Below are positions 51,563-60,349 of a stretch of DNA of 64,000 nucleotides, piece after piece (within the stretch, counting starts at the first letter, position 1; each line of letters opens with the position of its first letter). The stretch comes from Picosynechococcus sp. PCC 7117 (GTDB taxonomy: Bacteria; Cyanobacteriota; Cyanobacteriia; Cyanobacteriales; MRBY01). Under the pieces are notes generated by a model. It saw nothing but the letters and a program-made list of their open reading frames with translations. It did not search any database and had not been told where the DNA came from. The translations under genes and the position numbers were made by a program. The stretch is taken from positions 2,418,001 to 2,482,000 of the forward strand of contig NZ_CP016477.1 of the NCBI RefSeq assembly GCF_001693275.1, given 5' to 3'.

Positions 51563-53263
51563 ATGCAGATAACCAACAAAATTCACTTTAGGAATATCCG
51601 CGGCGATATTTTTGGCGGGCTAACGGCGGCGGTCATTGCGTTGCCCATGGCCCTCGCCTTCGGGGTGGCATCCGGTGCCGGGGCCGAGGCCGGTCTCTGG
51701 GGTGCTGTGCTTGTGGGCTTCTTTGCCGCCCTCTTTGGGGGAACCCCCACCCTCATTTCTGAACCCACAGGGCCGATGACGGTGGTTATGACCGCTGTGA
51801 TTGCCCATTTCACAGCCAGCGCCGCTACTCCAGAAGAAGGTTTGGCGATCGCCTTTACCGTCGTGATGATGGCGGGGATTTTCCAAATTATTTTTGGCTC
51901 CCTCAAACTCGGCAAATACGTCACCATGATGCCCTACACCGTGATTTCTGGCTTCATGTCAGGGATCGGGATTATCCTGGTCATTTTGCAGTTAGCGCCC
52001 TTCCTGGGACAGGCGAGTCCGGGGGGCGGCGTCATCGGCACGCTCCAAAATTTACCCACACTGCTGAGTAATATTCAACCGGGCGAAACAGCCTTAGCTT
52101 TAGGCACCGTGGCGATCATCTGGTTTATGCCAGAGAAGTTTAAAAAGGTAATCCCGCCCCAATTGGTCGCCCTTGTCTTGGGAACGGTAATCGCCTTTTT
52201 TGTTTTCCCGCCAGAAGTAAGCGATCTCCGTCGCATCGGTGAAATTCGAGCCGGGTTCCCAGAGCTGGTAAGACCGAGCTTCAGTGCAGGGGAATTCCAG
52301 AGGATGATTCTCGATGCGGCAGTGCTAGGGATGCTCGGTTGTATCGATGCCCTCTTGACTTCGGTCGTTGCCGATAGCTTGACCCGGACAGAACATAATT
52401 CCAACAAAGAATTAATTGGTCAGGGTCTAGGGAACCTCTTTTCCGGCTTGTTTGGCGGGATTGCCGGGGCTGGGGCCACCATGGGGACTGTGGTGAATAT
52501 CCAGTCCGGTGGTCGATCTGCACTGTCTGGATTGGTGCGGGCCTTTGTCCTGTTGGTTGTGATCCTGGGGGCTGCGAGTTTGACGGCAACCATTCCCCTG
52601 GCTGTGTTAGCGGGGATTGCCTTCAAGGTCGGGGTTGACATTATTGACTGGAGTTTCCTGAAACGGGCCCACGAAATCTCCCCCAAAGGTGCCTTTATTA
52701 TGTACGGCGTCATTTTGTTGACGGTCTTAGTTGACTTGATTGTTGCCGTGGGTGTGGGTGTCTTTGTGGCTAATGTGCTCACCATCGAACGGATGAGTAA
52801 TCTCCAGTCCGAAAAAGTCCAAACGGTCAGTGATGCTGACGATAATATCCGCCTGACTACCACCGAAAAACGCTGGTTGGATGAAGGTCAAGGCCGCGTT
52901 CTTTTGTTCCAACTCAGTGGGCCGATGATCTTTGGGGTCGCAAAGGCGATCGCCAGGGAACACAATGCGATGGGTGACTGTGACGCTCTCGTCTTTGATA
53001 TCGGTGAAGTACCCCACATGGGAGTGACCGCTTCCCTAGCCTTAGAAAATGCCATTGAAGAGGCCCTCGACAAAGAACGCCAGGTTTATATCGTCGGTGC
53101 TGCGGGCCAAACCCGTCGCCGTCTGGAAAAACTCAAGCTCTTTAAGCGGGTTCCCCCCGATAAATGTTTAATGTCGCGGGAAGAAGCCCTCAAGAATGCC
53201 GTGCTCGGAATCTATCCCCATTTGGCGGATGGTGTGACGGCTCCTAGTTCAGAGATGGGTTAA
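51563..53263 (+). CDS. bicA: Sodium-dependent bicarbonate transporter BicA (SulP family)
   Basis: Takes up HCO3- with Na+ across the plasma membrane, feeding the carboxysome. The 566-residue protein has about 14 membrane segments (about 15-430) including the SulP signatures ISEPTGPMTVVMTAVIAHF and CIDALLTSVVADS, followed by a STAS domain (about 440-555) with FDIGEVPHMGVTASLALE. As I remember it, the sequence is almost identical to BicA of Synechococcus PCC 7002, which is why the identification is firm. It is followed by a Na+/H+ antiporter gene and an mrp operon on the same strand. Low-CO2 induction is known for bicA in this group. Confidence 0.95.
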   Translation: MQITNKIHFRNIRGDIFGGLTAAVIALPMALAFGVASGAGAEAGLWGAVLVGFFAALFGGTPTLISEPTGPMTVVMTAVIAHFTASAATPEEGLAIAFTVVMMAGIFQIIFGSLKLGKYVTMMPYTVISGFMSGIGIILVILQLAPFLGQASPGGGVIGTLQNLPTLLSNIQPGETALALGTVAIIWFMPEKFKKVIPPQLVALVLGTVIAFFVFPPEVSDLRRIGEIRAGFPELVRPSFSAGEFQRMILDAAVLGMLGCIDALLTSVVADSLTRTEHNSNKELIGQGLGNLFSGLFGGIAGAGATMGTVVNIQSGGRSALSGLVRAFVLLVVILGAASLTATIPLAVLAGIAFKVGVDIIDWSFLKRAHEISPKGAFIMYGVILLTVLVDLIVAVGVGVFVANVLTIERMSNLQSEKVQTVSDADDNIRLTTTEKRWLDEGQGRVLLFQLSGPMIFGVAKAIAREHNAMGDCDALVFDIGEVPHMGVTASLALENAIEEALDKERQVYIVGAAGQTRRRLEKLKLFKRVPPDKCLMSREEALKNAVLGIYPHLADGVTAPSSEMG

Positions 53264-53441
53264 GGCCCTGATCTGCGGTGGGTTCCTGGCTATCTTGGTC
53301 TAACCTTCCGGCTTATCTTAGTGCGGTATGGTCGGCAGATAGCCCTCTCCGGGTTCGATGCAACCTATCCCTTTTCACTTTTGTCCCATCCCTGCAATAT
53401 TTGCGATCGCTTTTTACCACAACGTTTGAGGCAAAAATTCT

Positions 53442-54860
53442 ATGCTAAGTCCCACAATCTTTTCTGGTAGTCTGCCAGGATTGACGGATTTCGTTCCTTC
53501 CCTGTCCCTGGCGACAACCCCGGAAGCTGACTATGGTTCATTTGTTTTAACCGGCGTTTTAATGACCCTGGTCGTGATCTATGCCATGAGTAAGTTGGGG
53601 GGAGAACTCTCCAAACGGGTCGGCTTACCCCCTGTATTAGGGGAACTGGTCGGAGGTGTTCTAGTTGGGGTCTCGGCGCTCCACCTCATTGTCTTTCCGG
53701 AAACAGGGGCCACGGCGGCCGACTCAAGTTTAATGCTGTTTTTGCAGCAGCTTGGTGGTTTAGATGGCACTGCCCTTGAGCATATTTTTGCCAGCCAAAG
53801 CGAAGTGATCTCGGTATTGGCAGAGCTTGGGGTCATTGTGCTGTTATTTGAGATTGGCCTGGAGTCAGATCTCCGGGAGCTGAGTAAAGTGGGTTCCCAG
53901 GCTGCGGTGGTCGCGATTGTCGGGGTGGTGGCACCTTTCCTCTTGGGGACGGTAGGCCTAGTGACGTTGTTCCATACGCCGATTATCCCTGCTATTTTTG
54001 CGGGGGCCGCCCTCACGGCCACGAGTATTGGCATTACCTCTAAGGTGCTGTCGGACTTGGGTCAGCTAAAGTCCACCGAAGGCAAAATTATCGTTGGTGC
54101 GGCGGTGATTGACGATGTGCTGGGGATTATTGTTCTAGCGGTCGTCGCGAGTTTGGCCAAGACCGGGGAAGTGGATCTCCTGAATGTGGTCTATCTGATT
54201 ATTGGGGCCAGTGCTTTTCTGTTGGGTTCGATTCTGCTCGGTAAATTCTTTAACCAAGGTTTTGAGGCGATCGCCGCCAAACTAAAAACCCGGGGCGCGC
54301 TGTTGATTCCGGCCTTTGCCTTTGCGTTGGTGATGGCGATTATTGCGAACCTCATCCATTTAGAAGCCATTTTAGGGGCCTTCGCGGCGGGTCTCGTGTT
54401 GGATGAAACGGATCTCCGTAAAGAGTTAGACCGTCAGGTGATGCCCATTGCCGACTTTTTAGTGCCGATCTTTTTTGTAACCGTGGGAGCAAAAGCAGAC
54501 CTTGGTGTTCTGAACCCCTTTGAGTCTGCCAACCGCGCCGGATTAGTGATTGCTGCGTTCCTCATCGTTGTGGCGATTGTCGGGAAGGTAATCACGGGCT
54601 GGGCCGTCTTTGGTCAACCGGGGGTGAATCGCTTGGCCATTGGTTTTGGGATGATTCCCCGGGGAGAAGTGGGCCTCGTTTTTGCGGGCATTGGTTCTGC
54701 CAGTGGTGTGTTAGATAAGCCCCTAGAAGCAGCGATCATTGTGATGGTGATCTTGACCACTTTCTTGGCACCGCCGCTCCTCCAGGCTGTTTTAAATAAG
54801 CCCCAGGATCCGGATGTGCCTGCCGACCGGGAAGCCCTTGAGAAAAGTTTGTCGGTGTAG
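53442..54860 (+). CDS. CPA2-family Na+(K+)/H+ antiporter
   Basis: A 472-residue membrane protein with about 12 helices, similar to Synechocystis NhaS3-type antiporters. Family marks include KRVGLPPVLGELVGGVLVG, LAELGVIVLLFEIGLESDLREL, SIGITSKVLSDLG, and GAAVIDDVLGIIVLAVV with the paired Asp that bind the cation. IPRGEVGLVFAGIG is near the end. It lies 178 bases after bicA on the same strand and 62 bases before mrpC. The likely task is export of Na+ that BicA brings in, possibly at the thylakoid or plasma membrane. K+ transport is the alternative. Confidence 0.87.
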   Translation: MLSPTIFSGSLPGLTDFVPSLSLATTPEADYGSFVLTGVLMTLVVIYAMSKLGGELSKRVGLPPVLGELVGGVLVGVSALHLIVFPETGATAADSSLMLFLQQLGGLDGTALEHIFASQSEVISVLAELGVIVLLFEIGLESDLRELSKVGSQAAVVAIVGVVAPFLLGTVGLVTLFHTPIIPAIFAGAALTATSIGITSKVLSDLGQLKSTEGKIIVGAAVIDDVLGIIVLAVVASLAKTGEVDLLNVVYLIIGASAFLLGSILLGKFFNQGFEAIAAKLKTRGALLIPAFAFALVMAIIANLIHLEAILGAFAAGLVLDETDLRKELDRQVMPIADFLVPIFFVTVGAKADLGVLNPFESANRAGLVIAAFLIVVAIVGKVITGWAVFGQPGVNRLAIGFGMIPRGEVGLVFAGIGSASGVLDKPLEAAIIVMVILTTFLAPPLLQAVLNKPQDPDVPADREALEKSLSV

Positions 54861-54922: not shown

Positions 54923-55273
54923 ATGTCGATGTCTATGCTCGAAGCCTGTGTGTTTGCAGTAATCTTCATTGGGTTTTTCGGCATCATTTTCAAAAAAAAT
55001 CTGATTATGAAAATCCTGGCGATGGATGTGATGAGTACGGGGGTGATCGCGTATTACATTCTCGTGGCAGCCCGGGGGGGAATTTTTGCCCCCATTGTGG
55101 ATGCTGACCAGGGGGCGATCACCTATGCCGATCCGGTGCCCCAAGCGGTTATTTTGACGGCAATTGTGATTGGCTTTTCGATTCAGGCCTTGATGCTCGT
55201 GGGCGTGATGAAGTTGTCACGGGATAATCCGACCTTAGAAACCAGCGAAATCGAGAAAAGCCACACGCCATGA
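54923..55273 (+). CDS. mrpC: Mrp antiporter subunit C (NuoK-like)
   Basis: A 116-residue, three-helix protein related to NuoK/MnhC with GFFGIIFKKNLIMKILAMDVMSTGVIAYYIL and DPVPQAVILTAIVIGFSIQALML (core: DPVPQAVILTAIVIG). In Mrp complexes it forms a membrane subunit of the proton path. The start is the ATG of MSMSML with GGAGG 13 bases upstream. Its stop overlaps mrpD1 (ATGA), typical of this operon. The full set of subunits in the region supports the call beyond sequence similarity. Confidence 0.9.
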   Translation: MSMSMLEACVFAVIFIGFFGIIFKKNLIMKILAMDVMSTGVIAYYILVAARGGIFAPIVDADQGAITYADPVPQAVILTAIVIGFSIQALMLVGVMKLSRDNPTLETSEIEKSHTP

Positions 55274-56706
55274 TCGACGACATCACAATTATTTGGATTT
55301 TGTTGCCGTTTGTTGTGGGGTTCAGTATTTATCTCTTGCCCCGCTGGAACCGTTACTTTGCTTTGGCGATCGCCGCTCTATCGGTGGTCTATAGTATCGG
55401 TCTGCTTTGGAGTCTAGAGCCTTTTACCCTAGAACTCTTGGATAGCTTCGGCGTCACCCTGATGTTCGATGAACTGAGCGGCTATTTCATTTTGATGAAT
55501 GGGCTGGTGACGGGGGCTGTACTTCTTTATTGTTTTGACAAACAGAAATCACCGTTTTTCTACACCCAACTGGTGATCCTCCATGGGGCCGTGAATGCAA
55601 CATTTTGCTGTGCCGATCTGATCAGTCTGTATGTCGCCCTAGAGTGCATTGGGATTGCTGCATTTTTATTAATCACCTATTCCCGGAGCGATCGCTCCCT
55701 TTGGGTCGGCCTGCGCTATCTCTTCATTAGCAATACCGCGATGTTGTTTTATCTCATTGGTGCGGTATTGGTCTACCAAGCGAGTAATTCCTTTGCTTTT
55801 TCGGGTTTGGCGGTGGCCCCCAAGGAGGCGATCGCCTTAATCTTTTTAGGCTTACTGACCAAGGGGGGCATTTTTGTCTCTGGTCTGTGGCTCCCCCTCA
55901 CCCATGGAGAATCAGAAACCCCCGTATCTGCCCTTTTATCAGGGGTTGTGGTTAAAGCTGGCGTTTTTCCCCTGGCCCGCTGCGCCCTATTAGTGCCAGA
56001 GCTTGATCCTGTGGTGCGATTATTCGGTGTGGGTACGGCTCTGTTGGGGGTTGGCTATGCGGTTTTTGAGAAAGATACAAAACGAATGTTGGCTTTTCAC
56101 ACCGTTTCCCAATTGGGTTTTGTGTTGGCTGCGCCAGCGGTGGGGGGGTTTTATGCCCTCACCCATGGCCTCGTTAAAGGTGCTCTCTTTCTCACGGCGG
56201 GACAGTTATCCAGTCGCAATTTTAAGGTTTTGCGCGAACAGTCGATTCCCCGGGCCTACTGGTGGGTCTTGGTGTTAGCCTGTGCTTCGATCTCTGGCTT
56301 GCCCTTTTTGGCGGGCTACAGTTCTAAAATTCTGACGATGAAAAATATCCTGCCTTGGCAAAGCCTTGCCCTCAATGTGGCGGCGGTGGGGACAGCGATT
56401 TCCTTTGCGAAATTCATTTTTCTCCCGAAAAAAACAGACCCCAGCCTCAAAATTTTGCCGAATTTTTATGGCGCGATTGTGCTGCTCCTGGGGGGGTTGT
56501 TTGTGACCAATAGTTTTTACCTGGAAGCTTATCAACCCAGTAATATCCTCAAGGCGTTAGTCACCATCGGCATCGGTTGGCTGGCCTATGGGCTAATTTT
56601 CCAGCGGATTACGGTCAAGCTGCCCCGGGTCGTGGAGCAATTTGAACATCTGGTGGGGGTGATGAGTCTTGTGTTGACGGGTTTGTTTTGGCTGGTGTTA
56701 GCTTAG
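55270..56706 (+). CDS. mrpD: Mrp antiporter subunit D, first copy (MrpD1)
   Basis: A 478-residue NuoM/NuoL-like proton-translocating subunit with about 14 helices. The conserved Glu is in ISLYVALECIGIAAF and Lys in LLTKGGIFVSGLWLPLTHGESETP and VVKAGVFPLARC (key residues for H+ transfer). The end region VEQFEHLVGVMSLVLTGLFWL is also seen in its paralogue. It starts inside the mrpC stop (ATGA). It is followed by a second, very similar gene of the same length, 40 bases later. Two MrpD-like genes in one operon mark the cyanobacterial type of Mrp cluster. Confidence 0.9.
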   Translation: MIDDITIIWILLPFVVGFSIYLLPRWNRYFALAIAALSVVYSIGLLWSLEPFTLELLDSFGVTLMFDELSGYFILMNGLVTGAVLLYCFDKQKSPFFYTQLVILHGAVNATFCCADLISLYVALECIGIAAFLLITYSRSDRSLWVGLRYLFISNTAMLFYLIGAVLVYQASNSFAFSGLAVAPKEAIALIFLGLLTKGGIFVSGLWLPLTHGESETPVSALLSGVVVKAGVFPLARCALLVPELDPVVRLFGVGTALLGVGYAVFEKDTKRMLAFHTVSQLGFVLAAPAVGGFYALTHGLVKGALFLTAGQLSSRNFKVLREQSIPRAYWWVLVLACASISGLPFLAGYSSKILTMKNILPWQSLALNVAAVGTAISFAKFIFLPKKTDPSLKILPNFYGAIVLLLGGLFVTNSFYLEAYQPSNILKALVTIGIGWLAYGLIFQRITVKLPRVVEQFEHLVGVMSLVLTGLFWLVLA

Positions 56707-56746: not shown

Positions 56747-58183
56747 ATGAATGAATTGACCATTGGCTGGGTAATTTTTCCCTTTGTGGTGGGCTTTAGT
56801 ATTTATTTACTGCCCAAAATTGATCGTTATCTGGCGATTTTCGTTTCTGTTTGTTCGTTAATCTTTGGTTTTGTCCAAATTTTTCAGCCGGAACCCTACA
56901 GCCTCAAGCTCCTGGGAATGTATGGGGTAGATCTGCTGGTGGATGACCAGAGCGGCTATTTTATTTTGACCAATGCGGCGGTGGCGATCGCCGTGACGGT
57001 GTACTGCTGGAAAAGTAACAAAAGTGCTTTTTTCTTTACCCAGTTGGTGGTTTTGCACGGGGCCCTCAATGCTGTTTTTGTCTGCGCCGATCTGATTAGC
57101 CTCTATGTTGCCCTGGAGGCCATTAGCATTGTGGCTTTTTTGTTGATGACCTACCAGCGCACCGATCGTTCCATTTGGATTGGTCTCAGGTATTTATTCC
57201 TCAGCAATACGGCGATGCTGTTCTATCTCATTGGGGCGGTGCTAGTTTACCAAGCAACAAAATCCTTCGCTTTTGCGGGTCTGGCCGAAGCCCCCAGCGA
57301 GGCGATCGCCCTAATTTTCCTAGGCCTACTCACCAAGGGAGGCGTCTTTATTTCGGGACTCTGGTTGCCCTTAACCCACTCCGAAGCAGAAACCCCCGTA
57401 TCGGCGATGTTGTCCGGTGTCGTGGTTAAAGCGGGTATTTTCCCTCTCCTGCGCTGCGGCATTTTGGTGCCAGACCTGGATCTGTGGCTGAGACTATTCG
57501 GGCTGGCCACTGCTCTGTTGGGAATTACCTTTGCCATTCTCGAAACCGATGCCAAACGTTTACTGGCCTTTAGCACCATCTCAAAATTAGGGTTGTTGCT
57601 CTCAGCACCGGCGGTGGCGGGTTTGGCGGCCCTCTCCCATGGTTTAGTGAAATCTTCTTTATTTTTGATGGCGGGGCAATTGCCCACCCGCAATTTTCAG
57701 GAACTGCGCCAAACTAAAATCGCGAGCAGTCTGTGGCTGCCCTTGGCGATCGCCTGCCTGTCGATGGTCGGGATGCCGTTACTGGTTGGCTTCAGCTCAA
57801 AGGCCCTACTGCTTAAAAATATTGCGCCCTGGCAGGAAATGGGTCTGAATATTGCCGCCGTGGGGACAGCCCTGGCCTTCGCCAAATTCTTGTTTATTCC
57901 CCATGATGCCGCGACGAAATTTACTGCAAAAAGTGTGACCTTTTGGGGGGCGATCGCCTTTTTATTAAGCGGTGTCATCCTCGGCAATGGTTTTTATCTC
58001 GAAGCCTATGAATTTTCTAATATCCCCAAGGCCTTGATCAAAATTGCCCTTGGCTGGGTGTTGTACTGGCTGATTATGAAACGTCTCGAATTCAAGCTGC
58101 CCCGGATCTTTGAAGAATTTGAGCAGCTGATCGGCGGCATGAGCGTTGTCTTAACTGGATTATTTTGGATGGTGACCCTATGA
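56747..58183 (+). CDS. Mrp antiporter subunit D, second copy (MrpD2)
   Basis: A 478-residue paralogue of the preceding gene with the same key residues: Glu in ISLYVALEAISIVAF, and Lys in LLTKGGVFISGLWLPL and VVKAGIFPLLRC. The N-terminus is MNELTIGWVIFPFVVGFSIYL, and GGAGG lies eight bases before the ATG. In standard Mrp complexes the other large antiporter-like subunit is the N-terminal part of MrpA; here it may be replaced by this second MrpD. The two copies differ throughout, so the duplication is not recent. The stop overlaps mrpE. Confidence 0.88.
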   Translation: MNELTIGWVIFPFVVGFSIYLLPKIDRYLAIFVSVCSLIFGFVQIFQPEPYSLKLLGMYGVDLLVDDQSGYFILTNAAVAIAVTVYCWKSNKSAFFFTQLVVLHGALNAVFVCADLISLYVALEAISIVAFLLMTYQRTDRSIWIGLRYLFLSNTAMLFYLIGAVLVYQATKSFAFAGLAEAPSEAIALIFLGLLTKGGVFISGLWLPLTHSEAETPVSAMLSGVVVKAGIFPLLRCGILVPDLDLWLRLFGLATALLGITFAILETDAKRLLAFSTISKLGLLLSAPAVAGLAALSHGLVKSSLFLMAGQLPTRNFQELRQTKIASSLWLPLAIACLSMVGMPLLVGFSSKALLLKNIAPWQEMGLNIAAVGTALAFAKFLFIPHDAATKFTAKSVTFWGAIAFLLSGVILGNGFYLEAYEFSNIPKALIKIALGWVLYWLIMKRLEFKLPRIFEEFEQLIGGMSVVLTGLFWMVTL

Positions 58184-58569
58184 TCGGCATTCTCGATATT
58201 TTTCTGATTTTAATGATCTGGTTTCTGCTCACGGCAGACCTGAGTGCCGCCAATATTCTCATCGGCGTGATTATTGCGATCTTGATGCCCGGTAAACGCT
58301 TTGATGCGGCTCAGATCAAAGATTGGCTCCATGTGTTTTGGGAAATTATCATTGCGATTCCCCAGGCCTATTTTGAAGCCTTTGAAATGATTTTTCGCCC
58401 CCATCTCTATGAAACCGTCACCATGGAGCGGGTGAAGCCAAATCGGACTCCAGGCTTAATTTTTCTCGATATTTTTCTGATTACCTTTACCCCGAAAACA
58501 ATTGTGCTGCATTATCACAAAGACGGTTGGTACGAAGTTCACCGTGTGCAAAGGAGGAAACTCAAATGA
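58180..58569 (+). CDS. mrpE: Mrp antiporter subunit E
   Basis: A 129-residue membrane protein with two helices near the N-terminus (IFLILMIWFLLTADLS and ANILIGVIIAILMPG) and a soluble end that includes GLIFLDIFLITFTPKTIVLHYHKDGWYEVHRV, a form of the MrpE/MnhE family motif (TPxTxV). I start it at the ATGA overlap with mrpD2, since an upstream in-frame start would lie inside that gene. Its stop overlaps mrpF (ATGA). The role within the complex is structural or in Na+ path assembly. Confidence 0.87.
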   Translation: MIGILDIFLILMIWFLLTADLSAANILIGVIIAILMPGKRFDAAQIKDWLHVFWEIIIAIPQAYFEAFEMIFRPHLYETVTMERVKPNRTPGLIFLDIFLITFTPKTIVLHYHKDGWYEVHRVQRRKLK

Positions 58570-58817
58570 CCTGGATTTTTGGGGCGATGATCGGCGCGTT
58601 ACTGCTGCCAATTTATGAAGCAATACAGGATCAAGATATTTGGCAAAAGCTCCTGGCCTTCGCCAGCATTGCCAGTAAGACCTCGGTGATGATTTTGGTG
58701 ATTTCGGTGCTGCGGGATGACTGGACGGTCGGGGTTGTCGGTGTCCTAATTTTGTGCGTCGGCAATGCGGCGTTAATGCTACTAGCTCACATTTTGAGGC
58801 GGGTGAATTTACCATGA
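58566..58817 (+). CDS. mrpF: Mrp antiporter subunit F
   Basis: An 83-residue small membrane protein with three helices (WIFGAMIGALLLPIY, LAFASIASKTSVMILVISVL, VGVVGVLILCVGNAALMLLAHIL). It matches MrpF in size and position, including the conserved charged pair between helices (KTSVMILVISVLRDD). The ATG is in the mrpE stop (ATGA), and GGAGG is eight bases upstream. Its stop overlaps mrpG. Confidence 0.85.
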   Translation: MTWIFGAMIGALLLPIYEAIQDQDIWQKLLAFASIASKTSVMILVISVLRDDWTVGVVGVLILCVGNAALMLLAHILRRVNLP

Positions 58818-59107
58818 GCACTTTGATCAATATCCTCAGCTACGGCTGCATCATTGTGGGGGTGATCTTTTGGTTTTGGGGCACGGCTCCCCTGCTGGGT
58901 AATCGTTCTGTGTTGTTTAAATTGCATACTCTGTCGGTCTCTGACACCTTGGGTTCGATGGCGATTATGGCGGGGCTACTGCTAAAAATTCCTAGGGAAT
59001 GGCCCCTGCTGATTTTGGCAATTATTGCCCTCGCTATTTGGAACACGGTACTGGGGTATGTGCTGGCCTATTGTTCGAGTCGTGGAGGCGGTGATGAACG
59101 GATCTAA
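58814..59107 (+). CDS. mrpG: Mrp antiporter subunit G
   Basis: A 97-residue three-helix membrane protein of the MnhG/PhaG family: IIVGVIFWFWGTAPLLG, the connecting LHTLSVSDTLGSMAIMAGLLL, and LLILAIIALAIWNTVLGYVLA. The length and the GSMAIMAGL core fit MrpG. It starts in the mrpF stop (ATGA) and its end overlaps mrpA' by 14 bases, showing tight packing of the operon. All other usual Mrp subunits are adjacent. Confidence 0.85.
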   Translation: MSTLINILSYGCIIVGVIFWFWGTAPLLGNRSVLFKLHTLSVSDTLGSMAIMAGLLLKIPREWPLLILAIIALAIWNTVLGYVLAYCSSRGGGDERI

Positions 59108-59690
59108 TTTTGACTGGTTTGTGGGGGCGATCGCCTTGTTATTGCCCGTGACGGGGGGATTATTAGTCGCCCAAAAAAATCCTTACTATGCGTTGGTGAT
59201 TCGGGGAATCCTGGGGGCGATCGCCGCGCTCCTTTATGCAATGTTCGGGGCGGCGGATGTGGCTTTAACCGAAGCCTTGGTGGGGACGATGCTGTCCATT
59301 ACCCTCTATGCGGTGGCCGTGCGTTCTTCGATGAGTATGCGTTTAGGGGTTTTGGCCACTGGCACAGATACCGTTAATCTCATCCAAAAAATTAATCCTC
59401 TGCTCAAGCAGGTACTGGGCAAATATCATTTACGCCTGGAACCCGTGGTATTTGAAGATACCCAAGCCCTGGGTCAAGCCCTGGCGCAGAAAAATGTGCA
59501 CTGTATTTTGCAGGTGGATGGCGATGGGCACCTTCATGTCCTGAAAACCCGTGTACCACGGCTCTATGAAATCTTTAAAACCTCAGCCCTGACGGATGTG
59601 ATCGAACTGCAACTGCTAGAGCCACAGCCTACCCCTGAAGTCGTTGGGCCGTCGTCGCCGCAATCCCTTATGGAGAATCATCAATCATGA
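59094..59690 (+). CDS. MrpA C-terminal-type subunit (DUF4040/MbhD-like) with extra soluble tail
   Basis: A 198-residue protein. Residues 1-90 are a membrane domain with ALLYAMFGAADVALTEALVGTMLSITLYAVAV (core: AMFGAADVALTEALVGTML), which corresponds to the C-terminal MbhD-like piece of MrpA. Residues 90-198 form a soluble domain not seen in the usual MbhD: LRLEPVVFEDTQALGQALAQKNVHCILQVDGDG and VPRLYEIFKTSALTDVIELQLLEP. The start is the ATG after GGAGGCGGTG. So MrpA is reduced to its C-terminal part, and a new domain has been added. A regulatory or nucleotide-binding role for the tail is only a guess. Confidence 0.8.
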   Translation: MNGSNFDWFVGAIALLLPVTGGLLVAQKNPYYALVIRGILGAIAALLYAMFGAADVALTEALVGTMLSITLYAVAVRSSMSMRLGVLATGTDTVNLIQKINPLLKQVLGKYHLRLEPVVFEDTQALGQALAQKNVHCILQVDGDGHLHVLKTRVPRLYEIFKTSALTDVIELQLLEPQPTPEVVGPSSPQSLMENHQS

Positions 59691-60349
59691 AGTGGGTTTA
59701 CCTTGCCTTTGGTATTTCTTTATTTGTGAAAATGCTCGTCTTCCCGAATTTTGCGATGGAAGGGGAGATTGGGGCGATCGCCGAAGTGGTGGCCGCCGAA
59801 GCGGGGGTACCCAATGCCGTATCGGGGATTATTTTGCGCAATCGCCTCTACGACACCGGCTTTGAAGTGATGGTTTTCACCCTGGCGATCATGGGCGTGC
59901 GTTTTTTACTGGCCGACGAACACCCCTCGAAGGAAGTTAAGCAATTTACCGATTCCCCTTCCATTGTCCTGGCGCGGTTGGGGGCGACCATTGCGGCCCT
60001 GATTGGGATTGAACTGGCCATTCGGGGACACCTCAGCCCTGGGGGTGGTTTTGCCGCTGGTGTTGCGGGGGGGACGGCCATTGGTTTGGTGGCGATCGTC
60101 TCTTCGCCTCAATGGATGGATGCCATTTATAAAAAGTGGAATGCGGCGATTCTCGAAAAAATTTCGGTACTGGTCTTTTTTCTCTTAGCAGCATTGTCTC
60201 TGATGGGCTTCCAGCTCCCCCACGGTGAATTTGGCACGTTATTTAGTGGTGGTTGGATCACGATCCTCAATATCATCGTGGCGGTCAAGGTTGCCCTGGG
60301 TTCCTGGGCGGCGATTTTAATGTTTATTCGCTATCGCGGTTTACTGTAG
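59687..60349 (+). CDS. mrpB: Mrp antiporter subunit B
   Basis: A 220-residue membrane protein with the MnhB domain in the C-terminal half: GIELAIRGHLSPGGGFAAGVAGGTAIGLVAI (the HLSPGGGFAAG motif is diagnostic), then LVFFLLAALSLMGFQLPHGEFGTLFSGG. The first 90 residues are an N-terminal extension with two helices, like the first part of MrpB in this clade. It starts in the mrpA' stop (ATGA) and ends the operon. It is convergent with the TM0106 nuclease gene, nine bases apart. Confidence 0.9.
   Translation: MKWVYLAFGISLFVKMLVFPNFAMEGEIGAIAEVVAAEAGVPNAVSGIILRNRLYDTGFEVMVFTLAIMGVRFLLADEHPSKEVKQFTDSPSIVLARLGATIAALIGIELAIRGHLSPGGGFAAGVAGGTAIGLVAIVSSPQWMDAIYKKWNAAILEKISVLVFFLLAALSLMGFQLPHGEFGTLFSGGWITILNIIVAVKVALGSWAAILMFIRYRGLL

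Follow-up and report, generated by a model that had tools for sequence, protein, structure and literature searches.

The mrpA' gene of a cyanobacterial mrp operon joins a reduced, MbhD-type piece of MrpA to a folded tail, which is predicted from modelling to correspond to lobe I of the type II periplasmic binding proteins (PBPs), a loop that varies in length standing where lobe II would be. Our preferred reading, to which we give about even confidence, is that the tail docks as a cap over the sodium entrance on the cytosolic side, where it would stabilize and probably gate the Mrp complex. Neither the MbhD part nor the Mrp operon is new; what is new is the fold reading of the tail.

Here 'the window' refers to the whole stretch of DNA that was analysed, 64,000 nucleotides from Picosynechococcus sp. 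PCC 7117.

The mrp operon and its reduced mrpA gene

The features of the operon, its upstream neighbours and the parts of the mrpA' protein are collected in Table 1. The two large subunits, encoded by mrpD1 and mrpD2, are 61% identical, and for both the best score is that of subunit D. The window's mrp operon lacks a gene for the NuoL-like half of MrpA.

Table 1 Features of the mrp region, with positions counted from the first letter of the window
Feature	Position	Strand	Basis or remark
bicA, Na+-dependent bicarbonate transporter	51563..53263	+	NF050096 above cut-off
CPA2-like cation/proton antiporter	53442..54860	+	TIGR00932 E 4.7e-51, below its cut-off
mrpC	54923..55273	+	PF00420
mrpD1	55270..56706	+	NF005564
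mrpD2	56747..58183	+	NF005564
mrpE, divergent, start codon uncertain	58165..58569	+	PF01899 23.1 bits, below cut-off 27
mrpF, divergent	58566..58817	+	weak NCBIfam PRK08381 E 0.0059, operon place
mrpG	58814..59107	+	PF03334 E 9.8e-18
mrpA' (MbhD/DUF4040 + cytosolic tail, tail side predicted)	59094..59690	+	198 aa, ATG start
mrpA' residues 1-79, MbhD/NuoJ-like, TM helices 4-26, 30-50, 54-78	59094..59330	+	PF13244, model, VIA
mrpA' residues 80-175, predicted single-lobe type II PBP-like domain	59331..59618	+	AlphaFold2, Foldseek, VIA, weak sequence matches
mrpA' H136, at putative membrane-proximal pole with R83, R114, R153, R156	59499..59501	+	invariant 63/63
mrpA' residues 141-147, short loop at presumed lobe II place	59514..59534	+	VIA-aligned ranges
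mrpA' residues 176-198, C-terminus	59619..59687	+	pLDDT
mrpB with N-terminal extension resembling MrpA end (MbhE-like)	59687..60349	+	PF04039, NF009288

The mrpA' reading frame shares 14 bases with mrpG and 4 bases (ATGA) with mrpB. Its protein consists of a three-helix MbhD (DUF4040) part at residues 1–79, a folded tail at 80–175 and a loose end. The C-terminus is probably disordered, the AlphaFold2 model being of low confidence from residue 181 (mean pLDDT of 70 at 181–190 and 59 at 191–198).

PF13244 (MbhD) matches residues 16–78 with an E-value of 1.1e-14 (54.8 bits against a cut-off of 27.2), and it matches all 63 members of a 63-row alignment when E is allowed up to 10. No other Pfam family matches the whole protein, tail included, up to E 1, and the N-terminal, NuoL-like part of MrpA is not fused to the MbhD domain. 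Thus the statement in the initial annotation that MrpA is reduced to its MbhD-like domain holds. The tail was then placed from residue 90, a start that needs correction: the domain begins at about residue 80, directly after TM3, and extends to near 175.

The NCBIfam model NF005628 (PRK07377.1-4) spans residues 1–191 (E 1.1e-100, 335 bits, cut-off 151) under the label 'hypothetical protein', with fold and role unstated. Because this model covers the protein, the family is already familiar to annotators, though unnamed. In the literature searched, no account of the tail's role, fold or place was found; papers on Anabaena or Aphanothece mrpA may mention the tail.

Two side observations concern the neighbouring subunits. 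Residues 35–151 of MrpB align with positions 733–863 of NF009288, an MrpA model, which suggests that the MrpB extension is an MbhE-like piece joined to MnhB. MrpE, which scores under the Pfam cut-off, and MrpF, which has no fitting Pfam family, were nearly missed by standard models.

Directly upstream of mrpC, bicA and the CPA2-like antiporter gene form a compact Na+/bicarbonate island (51563–54860).

Predicted fold of the tail

AlphaFold2 was run on the mrpA' protein with 63 aligned sequences, and mean pLDDT is 84.8 for the whole protein and 88.3 for the tail modelled alone. The tail comprises β81–87, α92–109, β114–120, α123–131, β137–141, β147–152, α155–162 and β171–174, and these elements are identical in the two models. 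The small alpha/beta domain that had been proposed from the sequence is therefore what both models predict, and its arrangement resembles a PBP lobe.

In a Foldseek comparison with the PDB, the top matches of the tail are PhnD, MetQ, PqqT, TpN32, porphobilinogen deaminase (PBGD) and LysR effector domains, all binding-protein folds. The best match has E 2.6e-3 at prob 1.00, and none lies at or below E 1e-3. By VIA, the tail alone aligns with PBGD 5ov5 at Z 9.6 (2.0 Å, 85 aligned residues, chain range 0–220) and with the isolated domain 1 of ArgBP (6y16_A, 127 residues) at Z 8.2 (2.8 Å, 86 aligned residues). Because 85 residues are spread across 220, the former alignment must jump a long stretch of 5ov5, which we take, from domain layouts, to be the second lobe.

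The tail has at least 50 VIA matches, and 49 of the 50 listed are binding-protein folds by title, under fold labels that we assigned to those titles ourselves; the exception, 5gzs, is unplaced. Best VIA Z scores of 7–8 are frequent where there is no clear match, and 9.6 is modestly above them, so the fold call rests on the agreement of methods and not on Z alone.

The likeness to type II PBPs is partial. The lobe I fold is found in the predicted model, and two lobes with a hinge are absent, the tail having only ~95 residues. Periplasmic export is not indicated, as TM3 precedes the tail and the charge pattern predicts the cytosol. The window protein scores 12.2 bits with the PhnD-family model TIGR01098, against a curated cut-off of 112. 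At the presumed place of lobe II, the loop at residues 141–147 ranges from 4 to 27 residues over the 63 aligned sequences. Homologues with a full second lobe were looked for in 20 loci, picked mostly for unusual reading frames, and none was found.

Sequence support for PBP kinship

Sequence support for the kinship is weak and mostly points one way. TIGR01098 matches residues 78–136 of the window protein at E 0.095. A profile of the tail finds TpN32 (E 0.22) and YaeC (E 0.36) in the PDB, and the next two chains, with E of 1.2 and 2.4, are unrelated; a search of the PDB with the tail sequence of the window protein gives no match up to E 10. Among Pfam families, NlpA lipoprotein is the commonest weak match of the tails (14 of 63 members, with 3 for the next family), and the best E-values of single members are 0.0027 for NlpA and 0.0076 for PhnD. 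At similar E, single members also match the unrelated families PHA-1 (0.0032), AsnA (0.0046) and MtlR (0.0016). The window's own tail has no NlpA or PhnD match in Pfam, only weak ones to CesT (0.1) and DAGK_cat (0.17). No score with a PBP family passes its curated cut-off.

In hhalign, the tail scores 31.3 and 29.4 against two PhnD sets, from 29 and 27 of 30 loci, and 27.6 against a set of weak NlpA-family matches (12 of 12). This last, MetQ/NlpA-like set came from a PF03180 search in which 1 of the 12 matches exceeded the cut-off, and it may consist mainly of other binding proteins. As controls, 100 shuffles of the columns of the PhnD set gave scores no higher than 16.7, and four reversed sets stayed at or below 19.9. 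The hhalign probabilities are low (17–44%).

LysR effector domains, tried as the nearest source, score 13.8 (set from 30 of 30 loci) and are rejected for now; the TrkA_N nucleotide-binding domain was tried likewise and scores 10.4 (23 of 30). The negative LysR result, for a set that has this fold, counts against a generic fold signal.

Alignments A2 and A3 contain the window and 62 of the 80 loci described below; A1 combines the window with 21 loci from the first 30. The 18 loci left out of A2 and A3 are near-duplicate, truncated or irregular; in L078 and L100 no open reading frame was found by motif.

Membrane orientation and the sodium entrance

Lysine and arginine number 1.13 per sequence in loop 1 and 1.98 after TM3, and 0.00 in loop 2, over the 63 aligned sequences. 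With positive charge in loop 1 and after TM3 and none in loop 2, the tail is predicted to be cytosolic.

The modelled MbhD part takes the MrpA/MbhD/NuoJ fold, with VIA Z of 9.0–9.5 to MrpA 7qru, MbhD 6cfw_D and NuoJ 8qby_J. Its TM3 glutamate, E60, is invariant in A2. E60 aligns with a glutamate of MbsD (E58 by count), and a gapless offset leads to E69 of MbhD; the MbsD residue is termed a key element (PMC7684303), and MbhD E69 is treated in an eLife paper (PMC7419157). Bacillus MrpA has Gln in this column and Glu687 four residues later.

Residue 79 of the model aligns by VIA with residue 702 of Bacillus pseudofirmus MrpA. In the Mrp complex of that species, MrpA Glu707 and MrpC Arg27 lie close to the cytosolic end of a proposed sodium tunnel (PMC9568556). 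From this proximity between distant homologues we infer that the tail starts at the tunnel mouth. Since its first strand follows TM3 directly, the domain would sit where the MbhD helix layer opens to the cytosol. In line with a cytosolic tail, the C-terminal extension of the homologous MbsD reaches the peripheral (cytoplasmic) domain of the partner complex in MBS (PMC7684303).

A conserved pole and a variable pole

From the last turn of TM3 through the tail, R77, S78, S79, G85, L126 and H136 are invariant in all 63 sequences, and R83, R114, E116, R153 and R156 are kept in at least 59. Poles were assigned from fold logic without coordinates. Mean entropy is 1.18 bits at the membrane-side ends of the elements (23 positions) and 2.77 bits at the opposite ends (18 positions). 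This contrast has a Mann–Whitney P of 8e-6, which is descriptive because the position sets were picked from fold logic after conservation was known.

Loop lengths follow a similar division. Each of the three membrane-side loops has exactly 5 residues in every one of the 63 rows, and two of the three far-side loops vary, from 5 to 32 and from 4 to 27 residues; the third (121–123) is fixed, and every row has Tyr or Phe at the neighbouring position 120. Binding proteins hold their ligand at the pole that corresponds to the far side of the tail. A conserved membrane-side pole together with a mostly variable ligand pole favours docking over ligand sensing, on balance. The conserved basic, His-bearing pole would lie towards the membrane and the adjoining small subunits.

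Spread and variants among relatives

The mrpA' protein was matched in 73 of 100 relatives. In two different samples of the phylum, NF005628 matches in 119 of 386 genomes and a tail-only model in 104 of 373. The tail is therefore not limited to one genome, and it recurs in mrp operons of cyanobacteria. Its unlikeness to known Mrp subunits stands in part: the tail is absent from the matched MbhD, MrpA and NuoJ structures, whereas an NCBIfam family and predicted PBP-lobe relatives do exist. It is ordinary in cyanobacteria, and the papers searched give it no role.

The gene neighbourhood was studied in 80 loci, kept out of 398 relatives, with the window's genes sought by tblastn. mrpB is found in 69 of 69 loci having more than 900 bases downstream; among loci with more than 2500 bases upstream, mrpG is found in 76 of 76, mrpE in 76 of 76 and mrpD in 74 of 76. 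Over all 80, mrpF was matched in 79 and mrpE in 78, and one locus (L046) has no D gene between C and E. Within flanks of up to 6 kb, at least 28 of the 80 carry a BicA-like gene and at least 30 a CPA2-like gene.

Two D subunits are not a general rule: mrpC and mrpE were both matched in 73 loci, of which 65 have a single D, with a gap below 2.2 kb. Two copies with a longer gap occur in 4, from Nodosilinea/Leptolyngbya, and another 4 fit neither pattern. Both D queries often match one gene, so 'D1-D2' labels from tblastn do not equal two copies.

Free-standing tails were also sought. The window's own genome has a single match to the tail-only model, as do 102 of the 104 positive genomes of the phylum sample; two genomes (G201 and G295) have a second, partial match, which in G295 is a 70-codon frame on another contig. 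In a search for tails outside cyanobacteria, 72,556 plasmid records gave no match.

The titles of 79 of the 80 loci are cyanobacterial, and the remaining one (L081) is a 'Thermodesulfobacteriota' MAG. Its gene order is that of the window and its identity to the window is 49%, similar to cyanobacterial rows; this likeness makes it probable that the contig is mis-binned.

Two variants of the tail were seen. In family f41 (L144–L153 and L158–L160), the 13 genomes read, of 14 that match NF005628, keep the MbhD part with a shorter, degenerate tail from which the KE[VI]H motif is absent; several of these tails have His-Gly in a similar stretch, by reading without alignment. In the related genomes L141 and L142, strand 1 and helix 1 are separated by a long repetitive stretch of low complexity in which Asn, Leu and Glu abound.

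Possible roles of the tail

We conceive of the protein as an MbhD-type MrpA piece that became fused to a cytosolic PBP lobe I, the second lobe being gone. The cap would dock through its basic, His-bearing pole on the membrane and the small subunits, with the former ligand edge facing the cytosol. Most likely it would hold the cytosolic face of Mrp together and control Na+ access or the pH response there; a gating role is plausible. Of this picture, the reading frame, its conservation and the operon are observed and the fold and topology are computed, while the facing of the poles, the docking at the tunnel and any gating are inferred. The complex would recycle Na+ for Na+/bicarbonate symport, as the bicA and CPA2-type antiporter genes upstream suggest. 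Uptake of bicarbonate by BicA and SbtA needs Na+, and a review tentatively assigns the building of the Na+ gradient to the Mrp-like complex (PMC4390856). The Synechocystis mnh operon (slr2006–slr2013) is a member of the CcmR regulon, which serves the carbon-concentrating mechanism (PMC3401165); judged by its kinds of genes, it appears to be the counterpart of the window operon. In a proteome study, MrpA was slightly up at pH 9.2, with the other Mrp subunits undetected (PMC12382314).

Several observations count against the cap: MBH-type MbhD functions without such a tail, the 13 f41 members keep only a reduced tail without KE[VI]H, and on the far side loop 121–123 is fixed and Y/F120 conserved. 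Bracing is a close rival of gating, and we regard it as a real possibility at well below even confidence that the tail is a structural brace only, which would take the place of a clamp and be needed for assembly or dimerization without any gating. The lack of a NuoL-like MrpA gene in the operon, with both large subunits best as D, would suit such a brace, as would a docking face made of the conserved basic pole and the fixed loops, and the C-terminal tail of MbsD makes a dimer contact in MBS (PMC7684303). However, MBH lost its MrpA homologue too (PMC7684303) and its MbhD, 78 residues in structure 6cfw_D, has no such domain, and an invariant His exceeds what a brace needs.

A metabolite sensor is unlikely: the lobe, by itself or paired with another across a dimer, would still bind a carbon-status metabolite or small anion (bicarbonate, 2-oxoglutarate or 2-phosphoglycolate) and so switch the antiporter, but the ligand edge of the PBP fold is mostly variable in sequence and length and the LysR set gives no sequence signal. 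What speaks for such sensing is that the fold is common to sensor domains, including 2-oxoglutarate-bound CcmR (5y2v) among the Foldseek matches, that 6y16 is by its title a structure of the isolated ArgBP domain 1 with guanidinium, that the Synechocystis mnh operon is in the CcmR regulon, and that bicA lies upstream in the window. Still less probable, indeed very unlikely, is a chance likeness, in which the tail is a small alpha/beta domain of cyanobacterial origin, unrelated to binding proteins, that shares with them only a common beta-alpha-beta arrangement. Foldseek E-values of about 1e-3 to 1e-2, the low hhalign probabilities, the negative LysR set and the scatter of weak matches over other families would fit it, but independent methods converge on one fold and one stretch, nearly all listed VIA matches are binding-protein folds by title, and the shuffled and reversed hhalign controls score lower. 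The sheet order of binding proteins is 2-1-3-n.

If the docked cap is real, it would place a conserved domain on the cytosolic side of the sodium entrance and so offer a direct handle on the control of Na+ recycling. It would also be a case in which the complex I superfamily has taken over a binding-protein lobe for a structural or regulatory purpose. A bolder form, which we consider rather doubtful, is that the lobe of an ABC-importer binding protein was recruited as the Mrp gate, through which internal pH or carbon status would switch Na+ extrusion together with BicA/SbtA uptake.

Comparison with known systems

Like MbhD and MbsD, the mrpA' protein has three TM helices and a TM3 glutamate, E60. 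Unlike it, they have no folded tail of ~95 residues, MbsD carrying only a short Trp-rich extension (PMC7684303).

What the tail has in common with PhnD, MetQ/NlpA and other type II PBPs is weak sequence similarity and, in the predicted model, the fold of lobe I. The tail differs from them in being one lobe, predicted to be cytosolic and fused to an antiporter subunit, with a mostly variable ligand edge. Domain 1 of Thermotoga maritima ArgBP (6y16) is likewise a single lobe whose fold is shared with the predicted tail over the aligned residues, although it is, by its title and length, a cut-out domain and not a natural fusion.

The gene order of the window operon is equal to that of mrpCD1D2EFGAB in Aphanothece halophytica, which is reported to act as a Na+/H+ antiporter in E. 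coli (PMC5703873).
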